Shown here piece by piece: positions 125-61,203 of a stretch of DNA of 64,000 nt. The stretch comes from Streptomyces sp. SKN60 (lineage in GTDB: Bacteria > Actinomycetota > Actinomycetes > Streptomycetales > Streptomycetaceae), in the NCBI RefSeq assembly GCF_026236535.1, contig NZ_JAHTMW010000015.1:1-64000 (forward strand). The letters run 5' to 3'. The translations under genes and the position numbers were made by a program. Positions within the stretch are counted from its first letter, which is position 1; each line of letters starts with the position of its first letter. A model generated the notes under the pieces. That model made no database searches and was not told the DNA's origin. It was given only the letters and a program-made list of their open reading frames with translations.

Positions 125-1235
125 AGCGCTAGTTGTATGAGGTCAGGACGTGGGTGACGCTGGTGCCGAGTCGGATGGCTGGCGGTTGGTTTCCGATGGC
201 GGTGTGGGGTCGGTGGTAGTTGTAGTGGATGTTCCAGACGCCGAGGGTGTCCGCGCGCTGCTGCTCTGACGTCCAGGTCCTGGCGTAGAGAAACTCCTCG
301 GCCAGGATACGGTTGTACCTCTCGACCTTGCCGTTATGTCGGGGTGTGCACGGCGTAATCCGCTGATGCCGGGACGCCAGCATGGCGCGAGCGAAAGCGT
401 CGGCGCGGTAGCAGGCGCCATTGTCGGTCACTACGCGCTCGATCCGAGTGATCCCGTGGGCTGCGAACCATGTTCTTGCTCGGTGGAGGAACCCGATCGC
501 GGTGCTGGCCGTTTCGTCGGCGAGGGCTTCGGTGTACGCGAGCCGGGAGTAGCCGTCGACTGCTGAGTGCAGATACACGTACCCGCTGCGGGCGCCTTGC
601 GTCTTGGCCTTGTCGACAGCCTTGGCTTGTTCGCTGCCGCGGCCGTGTACACGCCAGCCCCCGCCGTCTTGGATCCGGCCGACTTTCTTCACATCGACGT
701 GCACCATGTGCTCGGGGCGTCTCGCGACGATTGGTTGGGGTGCCCGATTCGATTCGCCATTGGGGTCGATGAAGCGCCGTCGGTTCAGCCCCATCAAGGC
801 CAGGTGCCGACTCACAGTACGTCGGCTGATCGGGGTCCCCTCAATGGTGAGCTCAAAGGCTATTCGGGCTGCCGAGTACTTGCGGTTGCGGCGTAGGTCT
901 TCGATCTGCGCGATCACCCAGGCCGACGTGGCGGTCGGCTGGCGGTGTGGTGTCGAGGAGCGGTCGAGGAGACCGAGCTCGCCGTGGCGTCGATAACGGT
1001 TGGCCCACTTCGACGCGCACACCCGGGAGATTCCCATCTCGGCGGCGACGTGGGCGATTGGTCGGGTCTGGCATCGCTCGACCAGGCGTCGGCGGCCCTC
1101 GGCCGAGAGCGGAGCATTGCGGTGAGACGTGGTGGGCTTTCCGGACGGCGTGGAGAGAGCGCCGGGGCGCGGGTCACGGCCCTCTCCAGGGGTCTGCCGG
1201 CTCAGTGGTTGTCGTGGATGCTGCACTGATCAGCG
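125..1235 (-). mobile_element. IS481-type insertion sequence (approximate limits)
   Basis: Single-gene element built around the transposase. The limits are inferred: on the right, homology of the oxidoreductase appears to stop near 1,230; on the left nothing belonging to the oxidoreductase resumes after 129. A weak resemblance exists between the right end (CATCCACGACAACC on the minus strand) and AGTCCCCGACAG at 81-92, which could be a degenerate terminal repeat and would put the left end nearer 80. No target duplication was identified. Confidence 0.5.
129..1226 (-). CDS. IS481-family transposase
   Basis: 365-aa DDE transposase. Residues about 36-110 hold a helix-turn-helix region (SAEGRRRLVERC, then ISRVCASKWANRYRRHGE) followed by a second HTH; the C-terminal half is an rve integrase core. 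Catalytic acidic residues are visible as HVDVKKVG (D), VVTDNGACY (D) and GKVERYNRILAEEF (E), with the typical IS481 end YNYHRPHTAIG. The GTG start at 1226 lies within the reading frame of the upstream oxidoreductase, so the IS boundary must be near 1,215-1,235. The gene is full length with no frameshift and may be active. Terminal inverted repeats could not be delimited with confidence. Confidence 0.88.
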   Translation of the reverse strand: MQHPRQPLSRQTPGEGRDPRPGALSTPSGKPTTSHRNAPLSAEGRRRLVERCQTRPIAHVAAEMGISRVCASKWANRYRRHGELGLLDRSSTPHRQPTATSAWVIAQIEDLRRNRKYSAARIAFELTIEGTPISRRTVSRHLALMGLNRRRFIDPNGESNRAPQPIVARRPEHMVHVDVKKVGRIQDGGGWRVHGRGSEQAKAVDKAKTQGARSGYVYLHSAVDGYSRLAYTEALADETASTAIGFLHRARTWFAAHGITRIERVVTDNGACYRADAFARAMLASRHQRITPCTPRHNGKVERYNRILAEEFLYARTWTSEQQRADTLGVWNIHYNYHRPHTAIGNQPPAIRLGTSVTHVLTSYN

Positions 1236-1851
1236 CCGGGTCGACATCGGGCGCGGCGAGCCTCGGATTGTGGCCGGACGCGACGACCCTCATGACGAAT
1301 CCCGCGGTCTCTTCCAGCTGCCGGGTGCTGTCGAGCCCTCCGATCACCGCCGCCCGCCCGCCGAGGTCACCGATCAGTGCCGTGGCGAGATCCAGAGCAC
1401 TGCGCTCGCTGCCGCAGATCGCCACGACCGGCGCCGTCTCCTGCGAGCTCGCGTATGGCCACGAGGCCCCCGCGAACAGGTGCAGCGCCTTGACGACGTG
1501 GGCACCAGGAGCGGAGCGAGCCACAGGCTGCGCTGCGGAGCCGGATGCCGGCTTGAGTTCACCGGTCGCGTAGTCGACCGGGTTGGTGCAGTCGATCACG
1601 GTCTTGCCAGCCAGCGTCCCGTCGGAACCGCCGACGAGATGCAGAGCGGCCTCCAGCCCTTCCCAGGAGACCGCAACCACGACCGCATCGGCCCTCCCCG
1701 CGAAGTCGGCGGGGGCAACTGCTTCCGCTGAGGGGCCGATGTGGTTTGCGGCCTCACTGACGTGCAGCGGATTGCGCCCTGCCACCAAGAGCGAATGACC
1801 GGATGCGGCCCAGGCTCGACCGAGCGTCACGGCCAGGTTTCCAGTGCCCAA
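1174..1851 (-). pseudogene. NAD(P)/F420-type oxidoreductase, 3' end replaced by IS481, start codon lost
   Basis: The product has an N-terminal Rossmann fold (GTGNLAVTLGRAWAASGH), the NPVD loop (IDCTNPVDYATG) and a helical C-terminal half (STRQLEETAGFVMRVV), as in NADPH-dependent F420 reductase-like proteins of about 220 aa. The natural N-terminus should read VGILGTGN, but in that frame the codon after the excellent ribosome site GGAGGAGACA (1,873-1,882) is GTT, and the first conventional start is a TTG inside the Rossmann motif at 1851. At the 3' side the frame runs into IS481 sequence and ends in foreign residues. It is divergent from the HxlR regulator, a common pairing in which the regulator senses stress and controls the reductase. 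Probably non-functional. Confidence 0.6.
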
Positions 1852-1958: not shown

Positions 1959-2324
1959 ATGATTGAGGAGTCTTGTCAGACGTTCGTCTCCGACTGTCAT
2001 GTGCGCGTGGCAGCGGAGCTCATCCGCCACACGTGGGACCCCGTCGTGCTCTCAACCCTGCGCCTGGGGCCAACGCGACGCAACGAACTACTCCTGCGCA
2101 TCACGGGAGTCAGCGACAAAGTGCTCACTCAGGCGCTCCAACGCCTGCAGGCTCGTGGCCTCGTCATCAAAGTGCGCAGCACCGAGCGATCGTCGGAGCA
2201 TCCTGGCGCGGTTTACCAACTCTCACCGCTTGGCGAATCGTTCGCGAACGGGCCCCTGGCGCAGCTCGCGCATTGGGCGGTAGACAACCAAGCTGAACTC
2301 ACCGGCCCGCCAACAACCTCATGA
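1959..2324 (+). CDS. HxlR-family transcriptional regulator
   Basis: 121-aa winged-helix protein with the HxlR hallmark order: a Cys near the N-terminus (SDCHVRVAAELIRHTW), WDPVVLSTLRLGPTRRNELLLRI, then the recognition helix VSDKVLTQALQRLQARGLVI and the wing ending at GAVYQLSPLGESF. HxlR proteins respond to electrophiles or redox stress and usually control an adjacent oxidoreductase, here the divergent damaged gene at 1174-1851. The palindrome at 1920-1935 is the likely operator. Start ATG at 1959 was kept because it matches the family length. Confidence 0.88.
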   Translation: MIEESCQTFVSDCHVRVAAELIRHTWDPVVLSTLRLGPTRRNELLLRITGVSDKVLTQALQRLQARGLVIKVRSTERSSEHPGAVYQLSPLGESFANGPLAQLAHWAVDNQAELTGPPTTS

Positions 2325-2382
2325 CCCGCAACACCTAGTGAACAGAAACCAGCACCACCTCCCCATGACTGCAGGAGGAACA

Positions 2383-3501
2383 ATGCCCGCTACCGGACCA
2401 GCCACCTTTCTCGTCCCATTCTCCCGGGCGAGCCACGAGCACCTTGAGCCAATGCAGGACGTCACGCAGGCGCTCACGCCCACGTCCACCGTCCTCGGGC
2501 CATACGACGTCCCGGCGTACGGGTACCTCCGGAACATCATCCTGGATGTCCATGCATTCAGCGGCTCCGGCAACGGCGTTACCGCCGTGGAAGACGCGCC
2601 GTGGAGTGTGATCTCCGAGATCGCCCTCGTCGACACGAACGGAACCCCCGTCGTCGGCCCCTTCTCCGGGTATGACCTGTACCTCGTCAACAAGTACGGA
2701 GGATACGCCTACGCTTCAGACCCGAAGTTGTCCCCGATGTATTCGGGTGTCGCAGCGTCCGACGGCGGTTTCCGGTTCTGCTTGCGAGTTCCCGTGGAGT
2801 TCTCCACGCAAGATGGGCTGGGAAGCCTCCCGAATACGAACGCGGCATCCTCCTGGAAGGTCCGAATCACGCTTGCCCCTGCGAACCACGTCTACGGCAC
2901 CGCACCATCCCCCCTGCCGTCGGTGCGTGTCCGGATACACCTGGACGCATGGTCCCAGCCGTCACGGACAGATCTCCAGGGCAACACGACGCCCCAGACA
3001 CCACCGGCCGTCGGTACGACGTCTTACTGGTCCAAGACCATCCTTCCGGTATCGTACGGCTTCAACACACTCCGGTTGCTGCGCGTGGGGGCGCTCATCC
3101 GCAATCTGTTGTTCGTCTGTCGCGACGCGGCCGATTCGCGGTCGGAGGGCGACGCGATATTCCCCGATACGACGTCATTGTTCTGCGACGCCCACCTCCT
3201 GAAGGCCTACCAGAAAGATTTATGGAAGCACGAGATGTTCCGGAAGACGGGGCTCTCCGCGCCGATCGAGGCGGCAAACGGACTCGACTCTGGAGTGTAT
3301 GTCGAGAATTACTGCCCCCACCTCGACGGGAGGGGCGACGAAGAACTCCACCACCGCTACCTGGCAACCACGCAGAGTACAAGATGCGAGCTGACGGGAT
3401 CGTTCTCCGCGGCCGGAACCCTCACGGTGCTCACGAACGACGTGGTCCCCGCTCCCAAGTTCTGCACGGACGAGGTCGGGCTGGAGGGGCGTCGGCGGTG
3501 A
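2383..3501 (+). CDS. Putative double jelly-roll (tectivirus-like) major capsid protein, orphan
   Basis: 372 aa from the ATG at 2383, chosen over the upstream ATG at 2338 because AGGAGGAA lies at 2373-2380. The sequence is rich in beta strands and lacks any membrane segment or signal peptide. Its layout resembles PRD1/Bam35-type double jelly-roll capsid proteins: a first barrel with APWSVISEIALVDTNGTPV followed by GYDLYLVNKYGGY, then RVPVEFSTQDGLGSLPN and WKVRITLAPANHVYG, then a second barrel starting near YWSKTILPVSYGFNTLRL with DLWKHEMF. The length (350-400 aa) fits. No packaging ATPase, protease or terminal protein gene is nearby; downstream sequence is cut by an IS5 element. The family call is from remembered motif patterns, so a structure prediction is the decisive test. 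It could instead be another virus-derived beta-sandwich protein. Confidence 0.55.
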   Translation: MPATGPATFLVPFSRASHEHLEPMQDVTQALTPTSTVLGPYDVPAYGYLRNIILDVHAFSGSGNGVTAVEDAPWSVISEIALVDTNGTPVVGPFSGYDLYLVNKYGGYAYASDPKLSPMYSGVAASDGGFRFCLRVPVEFSTQDGLGSLPNTNAASSWKVRITLAPANHVYGTAPSPLPSVRVRIHLDAWSQPSRTDLQGNTTPQTPPAVGTTSYWSKTILPVSYGFNTLRLLRVGALIRNLLFVCRDAADSRSEGDAIFPDTTSLFCDAHLLKAYQKDLWKHEMFRKTGLSAPIEAANGLDSGVYVENYCPHLDGRGDEELHHRYLATTQSTRCELTGSFSAAGTLTVLTNDVVPAPKFCTDEVGLEGRRR

Positions 3502-3677
3502 CGTCACCCATCTCAGCGAGGTGGTCCCTGGGAATGACCTCCCGTGCCATGTCGTCGCCCCGTTCCGGCGTGACCACTATCTGAATTCCCGTCCTTGACC
3601 TCGATTCATCAGTGAGCTCTTCAGGCCGCGTTTGAGATCTGCCGCGCCGTGGGGCTGGCAGGGTCGTTGAGCTCTGT

Positions 3678-4526
3678 GTGAGTGGCTCTGGGGGCGGGTA
3701 TCCGTCGGACCTGGCGGACGAGCAGTGGGCCCTGATGGAGCCGTTGCTGCCGCCGGCGCGGGTGGGTCCGAAGGGCGGTCGGCGGGAGAAACACCCGCGG
3801 CGGCGGATCGCGGACGCGATCTTCTACGTGGTGCGGACCGACTGTGCCTGGCGGCAGCTGCCGAAAGACTTCCCGCCGTGGCCAACGGTGCACTGGTACT
3901 TCACCTGGTGGCACGACGACGGCAGTGTCGAGCGTATCCACGACGCACTGCGCGGCCGGATCCGGGAGGCGCGACGTGGAGCCGAGCGCGGGCCTGATCG
4001 ACTCGCAGTCCGTCCGCACCGCCGACACCGTCCCTGCTGCTACCAGGGGTTTCGACGCGGGCAAGAAGGTGAAAGGCCGCAAGCGGTTCATCGTCACCGA
4101 TACCCTCGGCCTGCTCATGGCCGTCCACGTCGTCGCGGCGAGCATCCAGGACCGTGACGGCGCAAAGCGACCGTTGCTGTGGACCAGGCTCGACCATCCC
4201 GGCGTCCGGAAGGTCTGGGCCTACCAGGGCTTCGCCGGCCGCCTGGTCGAGTGGACTGCCCAGATCCCCGGCCGTGACCTGGAGATCGTCCGCAAGGATC
4301 CCGACCAGCGCGGCTTCCAGGTTCAGCCCAAGCAGCGGGCGGTGGAACGCACCTTCTCGTGGGTCACCGCCCACCGCCGCCTTGCCCGCGACTACGAGAC
4401 CAGCCCCCGCTCATTCGGAGACGGTGATCCGCTGGGCGATGATCGGCATCATGGTCCGCCGCCTTGCCCGACGCCGACCGGCACCCCGGCAAGACCCGCG
4501 ATCCCTCTCACGCGTCACCGGCTGAC
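3678..4526 (+). pseudogene. IS5-family (IS427 group) transposase, inactivated
   Basis: The N-terminal DUF4096 part (SDLADEQWALMEPLLPPA, then DCAWRQLPKDFPPW) is in one frame to about 3,970; the DDE part (GLIDSQSVRTADTV, KGRKRFIVTDTLG) continues in another frame. That shift resembles the programmed frameshift of this group. A second shift near 4,405 moves the end (AHSETVIRWAMIGIMVRRL) to a third frame, which is not normal. In addition the second catalytic Asp, expected in the motif WADQGF, is Tyr here (WAYQGFAGRLV, about 4,219). The Glu is present in AVERTFSWVTAHRRL. Dead by two independent lesions. Confidence 0.75.
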
Positions 4527-4541
4527 GCATCGCACATCTCC

Positions 4542-5018
4542 TCATGTGTCATACGAGCCGTCCCACGGTGCGCTGAATCCAAGCCGGTTCGGGTAGAACT
4601 CAGCCCAGTCATCCTGTTCCACCCCATCGGGATACTCCCCGTGGCACTCAGGGACCAGACCAAACAGTGTGCCGTCGACCTCTACGGCGAACGGGGCGAC
4701 TGCGATGTCGGCGAACCGCCGACCGGGCAGCGAGTCCAACCACTCACCCATAACCCGCTGCGCGGCTTCCACCACCGGCACCTTCCCCGGTCCGTCGGCG
4801 ACCGTTCCTGCCGACCTGATGCGCGAGTCCAGGTGCTGGCCGTCGGTGTCGAACTCGTGCAGCACGGAGTACCACCGCCGCACTACCCGCCCATTACCTT
4901 CCCGGCCTGTGACAACACCGCTGACGTGAGCGAAGAACTGGCCTCCGTCCCACTGTCCGATGGTGGACGTTCTGTAGTCCGGCTCATGCCGAATGGGAAC
5001 GAGATCAGGCAAAGTCAT
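4542..5018 (-). CDS. Conserved Streptomyces protein of the type annotated 'HycA', IS passenger
   Basis: 158 aa, soluble, no signal peptide. Ends DDWAEFYPNRLGF then APWDGSYDT, and contains QWDGGQFFAHVSGVV and YSVLHEFDTDGQHLDS, a pattern common in Streptomyces proteins labelled formate hydrogenlyase regulatory protein HycA in databases. The label is probably a historical misannotation: no hydrogenase genes are present here. Lies wholly between the inverted repeats of the IS5-family element, antisense to the transposase and almost touching its 3' end, so it has been carried as cargo. Open frame with no lesion. No clear ribosome site precedes the ATG. Function unknown. Confidence 0.7.
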   Translation of the reverse strand: MTLPDLVPIRHEPDYRTSTIGQWDGGQFFAHVSGVVTGREGNGRVVRRWYSVLHEFDTDGQHLDSRIRSAGTVADGPGKVPVVEAAQRVMGEWLDSLPGRRFADIAVAPFAVEVDGTLFGLVPECHGEYPDGVEQDDWAEFYPNRLGFSAPWDGSYDT

Positions 5019-5111
5019 GGCCGCACCCTACGTGCCGACCACGACAGTACGGATGCCTGCCCAGCCTCACTCGTCGCAGATCTCAAACGCGGTCTCAGAG
5101 TGGCCACTGAT

Positions 5112-5363
5112 CGAGTGCCCCAGGCCGAGTCACCCGATCCATACCGTTCGTCGTGGGCCGTTCCGGTCATTCGTAGGATCGGAGCACCCAGGGGTGCTGG
5201 GTATGGCTGTCACCCGATAGCCGATGATGTGGCTTCCACTGATTGGCCGCCCGGCACCCCGCGACGACTCGGCCGCTCATTGGGATACGCGAACTGAATC
5301 GCTCGTGTGGATGCGTCGGCGAGGTCGTCTGCTGGGACACAACACCACGTCGGAGGAGGATCG
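5112..5363 (+). ncRNA. IS110 left-end non-coding region, candidate bridge RNA
   Basis: About 250 bp of non-coding DNA directly upstream of the IS110 transposase start. IS110-group elements are known to transcribe a guide (bridge/seek) RNA from this position. A perfect stem-loop AGCACCC-AG-GGGTGCT at 5183-5198 is visible inside it. The rest of the RNA fold was not computed, and the exact IS end is not known. Confidence 0.35.
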
Positions 5364-6578
5364 GTGCCGGAATTGTGGGCCGGGACGGACGCGGGGAAGG
5401 CCGAGCACCACTGCACGGTCATCGATGCCAACGGGACGACGTTGCTGTCGCGGCGTGTGCCGAACAGCGAGGCTGAACTGCTCGAACTCCTTGGTGACGT
5501 ATTGGGGATAGCCGACGGTGGTCCGGTCACCTGGGCCGTCGACCTGAACGCCGGCGGGGCCTCCTTGTGGATCGCGCTGCTGGTCAACCACGGCCAGAAG
5601 CTGTTCTATATCCCCGGCCGGACCGTGCACCACGCCTCAGCGGCCTATCGGGGCAGTGGGAAGACGGACGCGAAGGACGCGTTCATCATCGCCGACACCG
5701 CCCGCATGCGCCGTGACCTGCAGCCTCTGCAGGAGCTCGGTGAGATCGCAGTAGACCTGCGGATTCTGACCGCGCGCCGGATCGACCTCGCGGCCGACCG
5801 CACTCGCGCGATCAACCGCCTCCGCGCGCAGCTGCTGGAGTACTTCCCCGCCCTGGAGCGTGCCTTCGATCTGAGCACCTCCAAGAGCGCGCTGATTCTG
5901 CTGGCCGGCTACCAAACCCCGGCAGCCCTGCGAAGGATCGGCCGGTCGCGGCTCACGACCTGGTTGAAGAACCACGGCGTGCGTACCAGCACCGCTGCCA
6001 GGAGCACGGCCGAGGCCGCGGTGACCGCCGGAGAAGCCCAGTTCACCGTCGTTCCCGGGGAAAGGACCTGCGCGCGGATGGTCCACACGCTGGCCGCGGC
6101 GGTGACGGCCCTCGACGAGGAAATCTCGGAGCTCGAAGCCCAGATCGAGGCCCGGTTCCGGGAGCATCCCGACGCAGACGTGATCACCAGCATGCCCGGC
6201 ATCGACATGACGCTGGGCGCCGAGTTCATCGCCGCTACCGGTGGAGACATGTCTGTGTTCGGTAGCTCCGACCGGCTCGCCGGTGTGGCCGGCCTGGCCC
6301 CGGTCCCCCGTGACTCGGGCAAGGTCAGCGGTAACCTCCGCAGGCCCCGGCGCTACAGCAGGCGACTGCTGCGAATGTTCTACCTCTCTGCCCAGGTCGC
6401 CACCGTGTGCTGCCCTGAATCGAAGCGGTACTACCAGCGCAAACGCGCGGAGGGAAAGTCCCACAAGCAAGCCGTCCTGGCCCTCGCCCGGCGCCGCCTG
6501 AACGTGCTCTGGGCCCTCCTGCGCGACCACAAGCTCTTCGAGACCGCTGCGGCCCGCGCAGGCGCGACAGCGATATGA
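5364..6578 (+). CDS. IS110-family transposase (DEDD/serine recombinase)
   Basis: 404 aa from GTG 5364, chosen because GGAGGAGGA occupies 5352-5360 and the protein then starts VPELWAGTDAGKAEHHC, the family's RuvC-like beginning. The first Asp is in GTDAGK; the DAKDAFIIADTARM segment carries the next acidic pair; a coiled helical spacer follows (about 5,750-6,120); the C-terminal Tnp20 domain starts at ITSMPGIDMTLGAEFIAATG and carries the conserved Ser in APVPRDSGKVSG, then RRYSRRLLRMFY. Full length with no lesions. A 17-bp inverted repeat flanks the element (5095-5111 and 6625-6641). Confidence 0.9.
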   Translation: MPELWAGTDAGKAEHHCTVIDANGTTLLSRRVPNSEAELLELLGDVLGIADGGPVTWAVDLNAGGASLWIALLVNHGQKLFYIPGRTVHHASAAYRGSGKTDAKDAFIIADTARMRRDLQPLQELGEIAVDLRILTARRIDLAADRTRAINRLRAQLLEYFPALERAFDLSTSKSALILLAGYQTPAALRRIGRSRLTTWLKNHGVRTSTAARSTAEAAVTAGEAQFTVVPGERTCARMVHTLAAAVTALDEEISELEAQIEARFREHPDADVITSMPGIDMTLGAEFIAATGGDMSVFGSSDRLAGVAGLAPVPRDSGKVSGNLRRPRRYSRRLLRMFYLSAQVATVCCPESKRYYQRKRAEGKSHKQAVLALARRRLNVLWALLRDHKLFETAAARAGATAI

Positions 6579-7230: not shown

Positions 7231-7937
7231 GTGCCCGAGACGCCAACTCCCCTCGACGGGGCACGGCAGTCCGTACCGCCGCCTCCCACTCATCCCCCCG
7301 GTTCACCGCGGGTGACGGAGCACTGCTGGCAGGCCACAGCATCACGAACCCGAACCGGCCCGTCCATCGGTCGGGACAACCGGGGCACCATCGTCGGCCG
7401 GGACATCAACAACACGACCAAGAAGGGAGGACGCTGGTGGATCCCGCTCGTGGTCCCTCTCCTGGCCGGAACGGGTGGGGCGTGTACTGGGCCACGCAGG
7501 GAACCGGAAACTCCGTCCGTGATGTCGGAGCTCAGCCTGGCGAAGCCGGTGTGCGCGACACGTGGACCACAACCTCCGAAGCGGTACGGAGGGGAAATGG
7601 GGAGACCGTGTGCGCCCCGGACAAGTGCGCCAAGGCTGTGGGGGAACTCTTCGCCAGCTCGGAGTCCTCGACGCTGGACGAGGCGGCATCCGGCAGCCTG
7701 CGAGAGGTGGCGGTGCAGGGAGAATGGGCCGAGGTCGTTCAGGCGCGGCCAGGCGATCCGGAGCCGTCGTACAGCTACATGGAGCGCTTCGGCGACAGAT
7801 GGTGCTGGTCACATCGGGTCCTCTTCGTCAAGTTCCACCCCGAAAAATGTCCACAGGCCACCTGGAACGATTCCGGATCGCAGGATCCCAGGTGCCGCCT
7901 GGAATCACTGTTTCCGCCTGACACGTCAAGGCAGTAA
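7231..7937 (+). pseudogene. Membrane protein with GRDNRG/GRDIN motif, frame-disrupted
   Basis: A GTG at 7231 starts MPETPTP. The core motif GPSIGRDNRGTIVGRDINNT and the membrane segment RWWIPLVVPLLAGTGG are in frame 1 (about 7,345-7,475), while the preceding AGDGALLAGHSITNPN and the following VYWATQGTGNSVRDVGAQPG through the end (SRQ, stop at 7935-7937) are in frame 3. Two compensating indels, near 7,345 and at the G-rich GGGTGGGG near 7,470, therefore garble the middle. The C-terminal 150 residues are a soluble domain with several Cys and Trp (FGDRWCWSHRVLFVKFHPEK). GRD-x-x-G repeats of this kind precede membrane anchors in many Streptomyces proteins of unknown role. Lies just upstream of AIPR. 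Confidence 0.5.
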
Positions 7938-8244
7938 CTGCTTGGACGAAGAAGTCCCCATGGCCGCCGGCACGCCCCTCCAAACCAGCGGGAAGGCGGT
8001 TCGGAGGAGGCTGCTGGGACCTCGGCCGCCTGCAGCAGGTGTCGCCACCACCGAGGGAGCCGACCTCGCCAGTCCGGCGCACCCCGACGCCGCCGGGCTC
8101 AGGGAGGGCATCCGGCACCGCACACGCAGCTGGGTCACGCCGAGCGCACGCTACGACCTGATCTACACCACTTCGAGGGGTTTCCTCTTGCTGGGTGAGC
8201 CTGCGACCATCTTGTCTCGTTCGCCTGCGCACCGGAGGTGTTGG
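7938..8244. other. 307-bp gap before AIPR, no gene seen
   Basis: An open frame continues through this stretch into AIPR, but its residues look like out-of-frame translation and AIPR has its own ribosome site, so I do not call it coding. GGAGGTG at 8234-8240 is the AIPR ribosome site. No clear promoter or terminator was recognised. Confidence 0.4.
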
Positions 8245-9999
8245 ATGACGTCTGCTCAAAACAACGATCAGCGACTTCTGGACCGGATTCTGGATGACCA
8301 GCACCGGCGGCTGGCGCCACAGAAGGGACGGGACGACTTCTTCACATTCTTCGCAGCCGACAAGGCGCTGCAGGATTGGGATCTGGACAACGACGAAATC
8401 ACCGACGGCATAGTTGACGGCGCACACGACTGTGGCATCGACGGCATCTGGTCATTCGTAGACGGCCGCTACGTCACTTCTGACGCCCACCAGTACCTCA
8501 CTCAACGTGCCGGCACCATCGAACTGGTCGTGCTTCAGGCGAAGACCTCACCCGGCTATCAGGAAACGGTCTTCGAGAAGCTCCACTTCCATCTGCCCAC
8601 GCTTCTCGACATGAGCCGCGACGAAGACGAGCTGGGCTCTCACACCAACGCCAAACTCCTCGAGCGCACACGACGATTCCTCCGCGTTCTCGAAGACCTG
8701 GCCTCCTCGTTCCCACAGGTACGGGTCAAGGTGATCTACGCCAGTAAGGCGGCAGAGGGCCCTCACCCCAACGTGAAGGCAAAGGGAGATCGTCTCCGTC
8801 GAGAAATCTCCAAGATCACATCGGACACACAGGCGACGATCGAGTATCTCAATGCGGCGGACCTTCGCGAACGAACCGCCCGTGGCGCGAAGGCGGTGGC
8901 GCAGCTCGTCTTCACCGAAACTCCCATGAGCACGTCTCTCGGGGAGGGCTACGTGTGCCTGGCACGGCTCGATGAGTACTACCGCTTCATCACCTCGGAC
9001 AACCAGGCCCTCCGACTGGAGCTGTTCGAATCGAACGTGCGGGACTACGCCGGTTCCACAGCGGTGAACAATGCCATCGGTGAGACCTTGAAGTCCGGCA
9101 CGGGCGAAGACTTCTGGTGGTTCAACAACGGTGTCACGGTCGTCGCCGACGCAGCACAGATCGCGGGCAAGAAGATCGTCATCAAGGATCCACAGATCGT
9201 CAACGGACTTCAGACGAGCCACGAGGTCTACAGCTTCTTCCAAGCCGGTGGTCATCACCGCGATCGCTCTCTGCTCGTCAAAATCGTGGTCGCACCGGAG
9301 AACGGGACAGCTCGCGACAGGATCATCCGGGCCACCAACAGTCAGACCCAGCTTCCGGCCGGTGCGCTGAGGGCCACCGAACCGATTCAGAAGGACATCG
9401 AAGAGAGTCTCACGCATGGCGGCGGCTACTACTACGAGCGGCGCGCCAGCTATTACCGCAACCTCGGGTTCCCGCTTGATCAGGTCGTCTCCATGGCGCG
9501 GTTGGCACGCGAGTTCACGGCCTTCGCGCTCCGCGAGCCGCACGTGGCACTCAGGCACTCAGAGGCCTTGCTCCTCGAGGACAAGCACTACCACCAGATC
9601 TTCTCCTCGAAAGTGGATCTCGACCTCTACCGTCTGTCCCTCGACGTCCACACCCGGATCCGGCAGCATCTGAATGCGTACACCGAGGATCGCCCCCTTC
9701 TCGGAGAGACCATCGAGAACTGGCTCTACCCCCTTGCCTCAGTGTCCGCCTACGCGCTCACGCGGCTGCGCCAGCCCACCCCGCGCGATCTGCTGAACAT
9801 CGACCTCGACCACCTCAACACCGAGCTCATGGACCGTCTGACAGGCGTGCTCGACCAGTGCTTCAAAACAGCCCTACGCAACAACAAGGCCGGCGGCGTC
9901 GACCGGATTGCCCGAAGCCCCGAATTCACCAACCGCATCCGCCAGACGGTGGTGTCCCAAGGTCGCTTCCACATCGAAAATGCATCGAAGGACGTCTGA
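8245..9999 (+). CDS. AIPR-family abortive infection protein, predicted nuclease
   Basis: 584 aa from ATG 8245, preceded by GGAGGTG; this start is preferred to the longer open frame reaching back to 7231. N-terminal region has a PD-(D/E)xK-like arrangement: GIDGIW at residues 64-69 (Asp66) and ELVVLQAK at 93-100, with a helix after it. The AIPR core includes WWFNNGVTVVADAA near residue 292 and KDPQIVNGLQTSHEVY near 315, then RDRIIRATNSQTQLPAGALR and GGGYYYERRASYYR. AIPR proteins (PF10592) are linked to phage abortive infection and often sit near DNA methylases; none is present here. It is intact while its upstream neighbours are broken. Acts presumably in the cytoplasm on nucleic acid; the substrate is unknown. 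Confidence 0.85.
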   Translation: MTSAQNNDQRLLDRILDDQHRRLAPQKGRDDFFTFFAADKALQDWDLDNDEITDGIVDGAHDCGIDGIWSFVDGRYVTSDAHQYLTQRAGTIELVVLQAKTSPGYQETVFEKLHFHLPTLLDMSRDEDELGSHTNAKLLERTRRFLRVLEDLASSFPQVRVKVIYASKAAEGPHPNVKAKGDRLRREISKITSDTQATIEYLNAADLRERTARGAKAVAQLVFTETPMSTSLGEGYVCLARLDEYYRFITSDNQALRLELFESNVRDYAGSTAVNNAIGETLKSGTGEDFWWFNNGVTVVADAAQIAGKKIVIKDPQIVNGLQTSHEVYSFFQAGGHHRDRSLLVKIVVAPENGTARDRIIRATNSQTQLPAGALRATEPIQKDIEESLTHGGGYYYERRASYYRNLGFPLDQVVSMARLAREFTAFALREPHVALRHSEALLLEDKHYHQIFSSKVDLDLYRLSLDVHTRIRQHLNAYTEDRPLLGETIENWLYPLASVSAYALTRLRQPTPRDLLNIDLDHLNTELMDRLTGVLDQCFKTALRNNKAGGVDRIARSPEFTNRIRQTVVSQGRFHIENASKDV

Positions 10000-10167: not shown

Positions 10168-10584
10168 CTACCCCAGGAACGACAACCGGACCTGCCGCCG
10201 CGGGTTGTCCTTGTTGGTGTCCACCAGGCAGATCGACTGCCAGGTGCCCAGTTCCATACGGCCCGCCAGGACAGGGACCGTCGCGTGGGGCGGGATGAGG
10301 GCCGGGAGGACGTGGTCGCGGCCGTGGCCCGGGGAGCCGTGGCGGTGTTGCCAGCGGTTGTCGGCGGGGAGGAGGTGGTGGAGGGCGGTCAGGAGGTCGG
10401 TGTCGCTGCCGGAGCCGGTTTCGAGGAGGGCCAGGCCCGCGGTGGCGTGGGGGACGAAGAGGTGGAGGAGGCCGTCGCGGCCGGAGGCGGTGTCGGCGAG
10501 GAACTGTTCGCAGTCACGGGTGAGGTCGGTGACCGTCTCCGTCGAACCGGTGGTCACGGTGAGGACGGTGCTGGTGAAGGACAT
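10168..10584 (-). CDS. YjbQ / UPF0047 family protein
   Basis: 138 aa, complete. Family features are present: VPHATAGLALLE, the metal-ligand histidines in GSPGHGRDHVLPALI, and the end GTWQSICLVDTNKDNPRR. YjbQ proteins are small trimeric metal-binding enzymes, credited with weak thiamine-phosphate synthase activity; the true role is unsettled. Stands alone between AIPR and the ssu operon. ATG at 10584. Confidence 0.88.
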   Translation of the reverse strand: MSFTSTVLTVTTGSTETVTDLTRDCEQFLADTASGRDGLLHLFVPHATAGLALLETGSGSDTDLLTALHHLLPADNRWQHRHGSPGHGRDHVLPALIPPHATVPVLAGRMELGTWQSICLVDTNKDNPRRQVRLSFLG

Positions 10585-59903: not shown

Positions 59904-60209
59904 GTGGTGCCGGAGCTTCCGCCGCTGCCCGCCCTGACGCGCGCCGAGGGCGAGTTCGTGGACGCGTACCTCGAAGTCGTCGATCTCCTGGGGAGAATCA
60001 ATCCATCCAGGACCTCGCATACCTATGGGGCGCTGCGCGCGGCCCAGGCCCTGGTCGGACGGGCGACGGCACTCCGGGACGCGCTGACGGTCATGCATCT
60101 GCGGGGCGAGAGCGAGGTGCACGCGGACACATTGGCGCGTGCGCTAAGGGTGTTGGACGGCGAGCGGCGCTCCGGCCGGGTCACCCTGCCCGGGGAGAGG
60201 GCGAGTTGA
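59904..60209 (+). CDS. Hypothetical protein following the ClpP-like gene
   Basis: 101 aa from GTG 59904, 7 bp after the clpP stop, so in the same operon. Helical, acidic: LTRAEGEFVDAYLEVVDLLG and GALRAAQALVGRATALRDAL. No family recognised. Its partnership with a catalytically dead ClpP may be functional. Confidence 0.6.
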   Translation: MVPELPPLPALTRAEGEFVDAYLEVVDLLGRINPSRTSHTYGALRAAQALVGRATALRDALTVMHLRGESEVHADTLARALRVLDGERRSGRVTLPGERAS

Positions 60210-60477
60210 CACCGGCGCGTGTCGTGTCGAGGTCCACACGGGGCACGCGGACCGCAGAATCGCTCCCCCGTTCGGCGTAGTCGACGAATCGACATGGAGC
60301 TCAGGTGAGTTGCGCAACAGGTGTACGCATCTGGCGGAATCAGTCGTTCCGGTGCTGGTGAACGACTCATGGGCCAAACCTCCGACGATCGCGAAACCTG
60401 ACTGTCCACCCGAATGGATCAGTCGTGAGGAGCCTCACATATCGCCGTTTCAGCTCGGATTTCGCCCTGGGTGTGGG

Positions 60478-60720
60478 TCAAGATCCCTGTCGACGACAAG
60501 CCCCCGCCACCCACGGCGGGGCGGTCCGGGCGGACGCCGAGTCCTGCCGCCGTCCCGGACGTCTGGTCGACAGGAGTGGACCGGCAGGAGTGGAGGACCC
60601 GAGCAACACGGGCCGCCCGAGCAGTACGGGGCGTCCCTCGGGGTGAAGCCGCAGCCGCGGCCGGGCATCTTCGCCAGCCCGAACCCGACAGGTCATCCTT
60701 CGCAGGCGGCTGACGAAGGG
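60478..60720 (+). ncRNA. c-di-AMP riboswitch (ydaO/yuaA type)
   Basis: Conserved ydaO parts are present in order: GCCGAGTCCTGCCG (60536-60549), GGGGTGAAGCCG (60640-60651), GGCCGGGCATCTTCGCC (60659-60675) and AGCCCGAACCCGACAGGTCA (60676-60695) ending TCGCAGGCG. Streptomyces often has this class upstream of NlpC/P60 or Rpf cell-wall enzymes. The 3' end (CCTTCG, 60697-60702) can pair with CGAAGG (60714-60719), which contains the ribosome site of the gene at 60727. That suggests control of translation start. c-di-AMP normally turns these genes off. Confidence 0.85.
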
Positions 60721-60726
60721 TTGCGC

Positions 60727-61203
60727 ATGACTGCGCAGATGCATGTCCCGTCCCTGCTGTCCCGGGCCGGAGCCGTCTCGGCTCTCACCCTCGCCGCCGT
60801 CGGCGGCACGCTGCTCGCACCGGGAGCGGCGCCCGAGGCCCAGGCGGCGACCTCCTACGCGAGCAAGGCGCTGAACGTCGCCGCCTCCAAGAAGGGGTCC
60901 CCCTACAAGTACGGTGCCAGCGGCCCGACCCGCTTCGACTGCTCGGGCCTCACGCTCTACTCGTACAAGAAGGCGGGCAAGACGCTGCCGCGCACCGCGC
61001 AGCAGCAGTACAACAAGACCCGGCACATCTCCTCGGGCAGCCGACAGGTGGGCGACCTGGTGTTCTTCCACTCCGGCGGAAGCGTGTACCACGTCGGGAT
61101 CTACGCGGGTAACAACAAGATCTGGCACTCCCCCAAGACCGGGTCCTGGGTGAAGCTCGACAGGATCTGGACCTCGAAGGTCTACTACGGCCGGGTGAGG
61201 TGA
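60727..61203 (+). CDS. NlpC/P60 cell-wall hydrolase
   Basis: 158 aa from ATG 60727. Signal peptide (GAVSALTLAAVGGTLLAPGA) then an NlpC/P60 domain: Cys nucleophile in TRFDCSGLTLYSYKKAG (about residue 77), QQQYNKTRHISSGSRQVGDL, His in VYHVGIYAGNNKIW and the third polar residue in WHSPKTG. Cleaves peptidoglycan stem peptides. Controlled by the riboswitch just upstream, which ties wall turnover to c-di-AMP. Confidence 0.93.
   Translation: MTAQMHVPSLLSRAGAVSALTLAAVGGTLLAPGAAPEAQAATSYASKALNVAASKKGSPYKYGASGPTRFDCSGLTLYSYKKAGKTLPRTAQQQYNKTRHISSGSRQVGDLVFFHSGGSVYHVGIYAGNNKIWHSPKTGSWVKLDRIWTSKVYYGRVR

Follow-up and report, generated by a model that had tools for sequence, protein, structure and literature searches.

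Yutin et al. (2018) described Toil-like phages and prophages, some of which encode Cas1 (S. noursei). According to the available part of that paper, these elements have the major capsid protein (MCP), the ATPase and lytic genes in common, and most of the prophages are without recombinases and are thought to be extrachromosomal (PMC5894146). In the phages WheeHeim, Forthebois, Toil and P19, the MCP gene belongs to a long run of structural genes and is found just after the packaging ATPase gene and a small gene.

The locus described here is in the window, by which we mean the whole 64,000-nucleotide stretch of DNA that was analyzed. It resembles the Toil-like Streptomyces proviruses, as the available part of PMC5894146 presents them, and the plasmid pSCO2 in that a tectivirus MCP is resident in Streptomyces. 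However, while those proviruses have the MCP together with the ATPase and lytic genes, the window holds a lone MCP gene in an island. In the titles and abstract openings of the open-licence literature, we found no earlier description of a tectivirus MCP that stands alone in a bacterial chromosome.

Some known defenses target the assembly of virions or tails (PMC10884400; Tai of PMC11364771), and some Streptomyces satellites encode their own encapsidation or coat genes (PMC10690885), according to the available parts of these papers. Our best guess, with a probability of about 0.4, is that the lone MCP is cargo that interferes with tectivirus assembly. The likeness to PMC10884400 and to Tai of PMC11364771 would then be an analogy in the proposed mode only, the spoiling of the assembly of incoming phage. 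As far as the available parts of these two papers show, their defenses act through other proteins, and a captured coat protein is not described there.

The MCP gene is preceded by a ribosome binding site:

2373 to 2378, forward strand: ribosome binding site AGGAGG of the MCP gene, seen in the sequence 4 nt before the ATG
2383 to 3501, forward strand: orphan tectivirus MCP gene, 372 amino acids plus stop codon, assigned by homology and predicted fold

The open reading frame, its coordinates, its 372-residue length, the strong ribosome site and the motifs quoted in the preliminary description of this DNA were all found in the sequence. A tblastn search of 50,697 phage records matched 15 of them (Toil, WheeHeim and Forthebois each counted twice, as GenBank and RefSeq entries), 14 with at least 80% coverage and the best with an E value of 4e-79. 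The window MCP was 41 to 43% identical over 92 to 96% to the MCPs of WheeHeim, Toil and P19. By phage, the tblastn identities were 42 to 43% for Rhodococcus P19 and Toil, 41% for Streptomyces WheeHeim, Forthebois and RickRoss, and 31% for six Microbacterium phages; two plasmid matches were 35% and 27% identical. The homology to these phage records indicated that positions 2383 to 3501 are not a chance open reading frame. Pfam and NCBIfam gave no match for the MCP, and a sequence search among solved structures gave only a chance-level match. PHROG 5863, which is labelled minor head protein, matched 9 of 10 members of the tectivirus-type MCP family, and from these matches the label seems wrong for the family.

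An AlphaFold model of the MCP, made with an alignment of 13 sequences, had a mean pLDDT of 73 and a pTM of 0.76. The top Foldseek match of the model was PRD1 P3 (E about 1e-13), and VIA-align compared the two with Z 26.5 and 3.0 Å over 313 residues. Glycoside hydrolase 172-type cellular enzymes were further down the structure list (Z about 12), with the PRD1, STIV and PM2 capsids well above them. The predicted structure is a double jelly roll like PRD1 P3, the point on which the preliminary description had made its claim of a double jelly-roll capsid depend, and the full-length homology to the Toil and WheeHeim MCPs agrees with that claim. Homology and predicted fold confirm the assignment of 2383 to 3501 to a tectivirus MCP of the Toil/WheeHeim lineage. 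The protein is like the MCPs of WheeHeim and Forthebois (Deltatectivirus) and of Toil and P19 in its full-length homology (41 to 43%), in the common core motifs and in the fold predicted for it. Unlike the WheeHeim/Toil-type MCPs, it stands alone and has a shorter N-terminus and a different C-terminus.

Partners of the MCP were searched for with 81 tectivirus proteins, chosen from 161 annotated in P19, WheeHeim, Badulia, a Micromonospora plasmid and pSCO2. These were compared with the ORFs of at least 45 codons in the window, in the 10 kb on either side of a second MCP copy in Streptomyces sp. CB02009 (genome G287), and in the contig pieces L053 and L022. Beyond the MCP, no other convincing tectivirus match to the 81 phage and plasmid proteins was found in the 64-kb window. 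The other window matches were an NlpC/P60 peptidase frame (60148 to 61200) and a 36-residue ATPase match with an E value of 0.001. The NlpC/P60 frame is 42% identical over 103 residues to a P19 protein and is probably an ordinary cell-wall hydrolase. In the CB02009 flanks, L053 and L022, nothing but the CB02009 MCP matched the 81 proteins. DNA polymerase, lytic and membrane genes were not found in the window or in the CB02009 flanks with these 81 of the 161 proteins from five genomes.

We then used a profile of nine packaging ATPases at E <= 0.001, a search for the packaging ATPase having been proposed in the preliminary description. The profile found none in the genome of the window (G000, 150 of 165 candidates scored) and none in the CB02009 genome (150 of 197 candidates scored). 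As positive controls, it found one ATPase beside the MCP in G356 and one in G647. Three short matches with E values of 7e-4 to 1e-3 were found in G630, a further genome with an MCP, and three similar short ones in G356. The mark of a tectivirus or provirus, a packaging ATPase beside the MCP, is absent from the window locus. The earlier statement that no virus partner was visible was borne out in the window and, for the packaging ATPase, in the scored candidates of the whole genome.

The lone MCP gene, of the Toil/WheeHeim lineage, is chromosomal and lies between the 3' end of yjbQ and a degenerate copy of that end, together with an anti-phage gene. The other features of this part of the window are:

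1 to 86, unstranded: end of an IS256/Mutator-type element that runs off the contig start, with GACAGTGG at 79 to 86
129 to 2338, unstranded: IS481-type transposon that carries passenger genes, its two ends marked by CTAG and by related terminal repeats (precedent in PMC6794481)
129 to 1226, reverse strand: IS481 transposase (Pfam)
1174 to 1851, reverse strand: F420-dependent NADP oxidoreductase-like passenger gene (Pfam PF03807)
1959 to 2324, forward strand: HxlR regulator, a passenger gene of the transposon (Pfam PF01638)
3502 to 3605, forward strand: non-coding tail common to the CB02009 copy, part of the 90% homology
3606 to 5107, limits approximate, unstranded: IS4/IS5-type element, DDE_Tnp_1 transposase with a broken frame
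4542 to 5018, reverse strand: 158-residue ORF without family, inside the IS4/IS5-type element
5307 to 6578, forward strand: IS110-family transposase (Pfam)
8245 to 9999, forward strand: AbiU/AIPR anti-phage gene, 584 amino acids from the ATG at 8245 (PADLOC AbiU, E 5.9e-171; Pfam AIPR, 8e-35)
10168 to 10584, reverse strand: UPF0047 gene, which we take to be yjbQ, its 3' end (about 10172 to 10226) being the right boundary of the island

The AbiU gene sits inside an open frame from 7231 to 9999, and the IS4/IS5-type element has inverted repeats at 3623-3642 and 5076-5095. The degenerate duplicate of the yjbQ 3' end is at C11:174179-174233 of G000; with two transposons set aside, the MCP start is 227 nt from the beginning of this duplicate. 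The yjbQ-end duplication is found at both borders, in a degenerate form, in the own genome (47/58, 81%) and in CB02009 (50/58, 86%).

The ORF of the IS256/Mutator-type element has a homologue in L065 that is a Mutator-family transposase. The flank GACAGTGG is also found at C11 174301-174308, abutting a related facing repeat near the end of contig C11, and the transposon ends with this flank occur once each in the stretches checked. The related facing ends and the common 8-bp flank support the joining of C11 to C10, a join that spans an unread, unsequenced gap. The window starts at a contig end, and the rest of a virus could be imagined in this gap, so that the lone gene would be an assembly artifact or part of an incomplete provirus. 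This is hardly credible: the two contig ends have related transposon ends with the same 8-bp flank, each seen once in the stretches checked, no ATPase was found in the own genome, and in CB02009 the gene is likewise alone and lies deep within a 1.35-Mb scaffold.

The CB02009 genome carries a 90%-identical MCP unit, also beside yjbQ. The homologous stretch (window 2379-3605, L001 9997-11237, 90% identity) begins 4 nt ahead of the ATG and extends to 104 nt beyond the stop codon; elsewhere the first 20 kb of the window and 21 kb of L001 have in common only yjbQ and the end repeat. In the CB02009 island, the degenerate yjbQ end is 3.6 kb away, and between the two ends are a GmrSD_N/HEC-05 gene and the MCP gene. 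An in-frame TGA interrupts the CB02009 MCP at L001 10742-10744, where the window copy is open. From its sequence the CB02009 copy looks to be decaying, while the window copy is without clear sign of decay.

Between the window and CB02009, yjbQ is 76% identical and thus more diverged than the MCP units (90%), which suggests that the unit has probably moved between lineages. In both copies the N-terminus is about 18 residues shorter than that of G356 and the C-terminus is extended. These common ends, together with the tail, which is not recognizably viral, indicate that the two copies probably come from one captured gene, an argument that would fail given an unsampled virus with the same ends and tail. 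An integron-like cassette, made of a gene and a conserved 3' tail, was considered; no further copy of the tail (3502 to 3605) was found in G000 or G287.

Of 15 other yjbQ loci examined, two, in the Streptomyces genomes G302 and G297, have a serine recombinase next to the yjbQ 3' end. Their frames are at L065 13434-14990 and L060 13343-14965; in Pfam, the Resolvase domain passed the cut-off, and the Recombinase and zinc-ribbon domains fell short of it. These adjoining recombinases mark yjbQ as an attachment site. No yjbQ integration site in Streptomyces was reported in the titles and abstract openings of the open-licence literature. At the left end, the own genome, CB02009 and G302 share the element-side sequence CTCCGTTA...CAAC. 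A recombinase like that of G302 is absent from both MCP islands, in the window genome with the C11-C10 gap unread. From these sequence comparisons, we infer that both islands are at most derivatives of the G302/G297 element family that have lost the recombinase.

No integrase and no replication or packaging-hijack genes were seen in the gene lists of the two islands, in which a few small ORFs belong to no family. The preliminary description had considered that the MCP could belong to a satellite. A phage satellite of this kind would make its own coat protein and be packaged with the help of a resident or infecting tectivirus. The bounded 3.6-kb island of CB02009, with a coat gene and a defense gene, is consistent with this, as is the existence of Streptomyces satellites with encapsidation genes (PMC10690885, available part). 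However, neither island has a recombinase like that of G302, neither an ATPase nor a polymerase match was found, and no matching tectivirus ATPase was found elsewhere in G000 or G287. We consider a satellite quite improbable.

MCP genes were found in 3 of 293, 7 of 392, 6 of 392, 4 of 375 and 3 of 221 genomes. The second tally of 392 genomes (6) largely repeats genomes of the first (7), and the tally of 375 also overlaps; few candidates were scored per genome, and weak copies may be missed. An exact-peptide scan of a species collection found CB02009 alone. In all, ten distinct genomes carry an MCP, seven with an adjoining ATPase and three (G000, G287 and G630) as orphans; the partial matches in G434 (95 residues, E 4.1e-4) and G772 (61 profile positions, E 1.1e-4) were left out of the ten. 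In the seven (G193, G293, G350, G356, G527, G647 and G925), the MCP is beside the ATPase and further tectivirus genes on contigs of 14.9 to 20.2 kb, and the MCPs of G193 and G350 are identical. In viral contigs, two single-sequence scans found no MCP relative, and a profile scan gave 13 MCP loci, three of which were, by identical lengths and positions of the match, Toil, WheeHeim and Forthebois again. The other ten all have further tectivirus genes; nine have the ATPase, and L097 starts just before the MCP. In the genomes and viral contigs examined, tectivirus capsid genes otherwise accompany the rest of the virus.

The third orphan, in G630, comes from another genus of the same family. Its MCP is intact (376 residues, 50% identity to that of the window, GC3 0.90) and has ordinary, virus-like ends. 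No further tectivirus match was found within 12 kb of it, and the contig stops about 0.5 kb downstream of the gene. The left flank is colinear, with two indels, with that of a relative, G673, up to 60 nt before the MCP start, and then G673 diverges. Of nine neighboring genes scanned with PADLOC, only one, for an ABC-type ATPase at a distance of about 10 kb, gave a match, and this was partial. On both sides of the G630 MCP (L081 about 9873 and 11676) there is a hairpin-like repeat of about 35 nt, which has many copies in G630 and several relatives. No MCP was found in 69 other genomes of the genus; since G630 is the sole carrier among 70, the MCP is not stably inherited. The preliminary description had proposed looking for conservation of the gene apart from virus genes. 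Such occurrence was found, in three orphans among the ten MCP genomes, but not conservation within the genus of G630 (1 of 70).

These results bear on a domesticated capsid that serves the cell in some way unrelated to virus interference, for instance as a self-assembled shell or as a surface or binding protein. In favor of such a role, the frames are intact in two of the three orphans, the window gene has a good ribosome site, and GC3 is 0.90 in G630. We nevertheless regard such a role as unlikely. The gene is not conserved within a genus, two of the three copies are in integrative islands, no partner gene common to the three loci was seen, and GC3 is lower in the window copy (0.80) than in yjbQ (0.94).

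In the MCP tree, the orphans group with the G356 tectivirus contig (support 89/96). The three orphans also form their own group with a support of only 74/75, so a single origin of the three cannot be claimed. The G356 locus, L016 (contig C135, 16.8 kb), has WheeHeim/P19-like structural genes and pSCO2-like genes (a 645-residue frame, 45% identical). No virus found in this analysis is more closely related to the orphans.

The omega value between the window and CB02009 copies was 0.33 by pairwise maximum likelihood and 0.34 to 0.42 by other methods. Both omega = 1 (2dlnL 23.6) and omega 0.16 (10.5) were rejected for this pair. Virus pairs at 91 to 96% nucleotide identity had omega values of 0.01 to 0.05, and more distant virus pairs up to 0.16. 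There were 45 amino-acid-changing codons in the window-CB02009 pair against 2 to 5 in the virus pairs at 91 to 96% identity. In a neutral simulation, 63.8 such codons were expected against 46 observed (TGA included), and none of 5000 runs was as low; one stop codon was observed against 1.86 expected under neutral drift. Branch-specific omega with outgroups that are too distant, and with a saturated stem, clearly rejected only neutrality of both branches. At the sequence level, the constraint on the protein between the two copies is relaxed relative to the viruses but not absent, and part of the divergence may have arisen inside an unsampled virus.

The window MCP kept 74 of the 104 columns that do not vary in 12 viruses; the MCP of CB02009 kept 71, that of G630 73 and that of the virus G356 78. 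For the 31 columns with at least 90% conservation across 18 viruses, the numbers kept were 28, 29, 27 and 27 in the same order. Four viruses, each left out of its own group in turn, kept 73 to 97%. At the 47 sites that differ between the window and CB02009, the departure from the consensus was by CB02009 in 23 cases and by the window in 9, with 15 undecided.

A fading remnant is nearly as likely as interference. The MCP would then be one virus gene that stayed behind in an island or was swept into it, functionless and slowly decaying, and the window copy would not yet be broken. The in-frame TGA of CB02009, one stop being the neutral expectation, points to this, as do the omega of 0.33 to 0.42 against 0.01 to 0.05 in virus pairs, the rarity and scatter of the orphans (3 among 10 MCP genomes; G630 alone of 70), and the four insertion elements around the window copy. 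However, neutrality is rejected for the window-CB02009 pair, and the virus-conserved core is kept almost as well as in the virus G356. The genes are whole, with nothing recognizable of the virus beside them, and the G630 copy is intact with a GC3 of 0.90, near the values of its neighbors. If the gene is a leftover, single structural genes outlive their virus and travel on islands.

Four points tilt the balance slightly toward interference with tectivirus assembly: the core has been retained, neutral evolution is rejected, the changes at the ends would be fitting for a subunit that poisons assembly, and each of the two islands has an anti-phage gene. A single capture of the MCP would have preceded the split of the window and CB02009 copies, and the gene would have moved among Streptomyces on an integrative island family targeting yjbQ; the IS256-type, IS481-transposon, IS5-type and IS110 insertions around the window copy would have come later. 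According to the model, the orphan protein would still fold and would probably still make capsid trimers. A protein with this shorter N-terminal arm and changed C-terminus could join or sequester incoming capsomers and so spoil shell assembly, and the gene may be kept as island cargo that protects against tectiviruses.

Three bacteria of the same family carry lone MCP genes; two of these genes are intact, and two lie in related islands with anti-phage genes. This recurrence, with the third orphan intact in G630, was counted for interference, and so was the anti-phage company, AbiU in the own island and GmrSD_N/HEC-05 in that of CB02009. Defense genes cluster in islands anyway, and such company is therefore weak evidence. 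PADLOC gave no family for P0001 and P0002, and its catalogue could not hold a kind of defense that has not been described. Several observations stand against interference: the TGA and the consensus departures of CB02009, with one stop as the neutral expectation and an omega far above that of similar virus pairs; the virus-like ends in G630, its neighbors near-empty of PADLOC matches, and its being 1 of 70 genomes; and the transposon now 44 nt upstream of the window MCP. Of the three readings in the preliminary description, the satellite is the weakest; the constraint between the two closest copies, relaxed but not absent, is compatible both with a remnant and with a domesticated (or antiviral) capsid.

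Gag-derived restriction factors exist in animals and yeast. It is rather doubtful, though conceivable, that actinobacteria have a counterpart, in which a tectivirus coat gene is captured, stripped of its virus, altered at its ends and spread as capsid-derived immunity on defense-bearing islands. Whether bacteria have turned viral coat proteins against viruses is a question directly testable with existing phage-host pairs.

The preliminary description had also placed the capsid gene beside an HxlR switch. HxlR is indeed just upstream but is not a partner, being cargo of the separate transposon at 129 to 2338, which is inserted 44 nt before the MCP start codon. The CTAG sites of this transposon (129-132 and 2335-2338) have related inverted ends. 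Read inward, 19 of 20 bases of the right end and 14 of 20 of the left end agree with the TnRErm46 repeat. In the available part of its description, TnRErm46 of Rhodococcus equi is an IS481-type cargo transposon with a CTAG target, which supplies the stop codon of the transposase (PMC6794481). The window transposon is like it in the CTAG target, the end repeats, the CTAG-supplied stop and a regulator in the cargo. It differs in its other cargo and accounts for the HxlR neighbor, not for the capsid gene.

In four further Streptomyces genomes, at five loci (G085, G375 twice, G344 and G370), unrelated regulators or enzymes are closed by the same right-end motif, among them SDR, XRE-cupin and Lrp-type genes. 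The CTAG ends, the TnRErm46-like repeats and the motif at unrelated loci indicate that HxlR arrived with the transposon. An HxlR-MCP operon or switch was rejected on this cargo origin, on the end motif elsewhere and on the oxidoreductase-HxlR pair, which occurs without an MCP in G012. A recombinase attachment site at the end motif was rejected on the terminal repeats and the TnRErm46 precedent (PMC6794481, available part).

A transposase 75% identical to that of the window was found near the end motif in L138 and L141, and a fragment in L140. The window transposon and L138, L139, L140, L141 and L142 form a Streptomyces IS481-type family with one shared end motif. Members of this family seem to carry a regulator with an enzyme or transporter (HxlR, XRE-cupin with MFS, Lrp, TetR with SDR), and the family may be a common vehicle for regulator cassettes.
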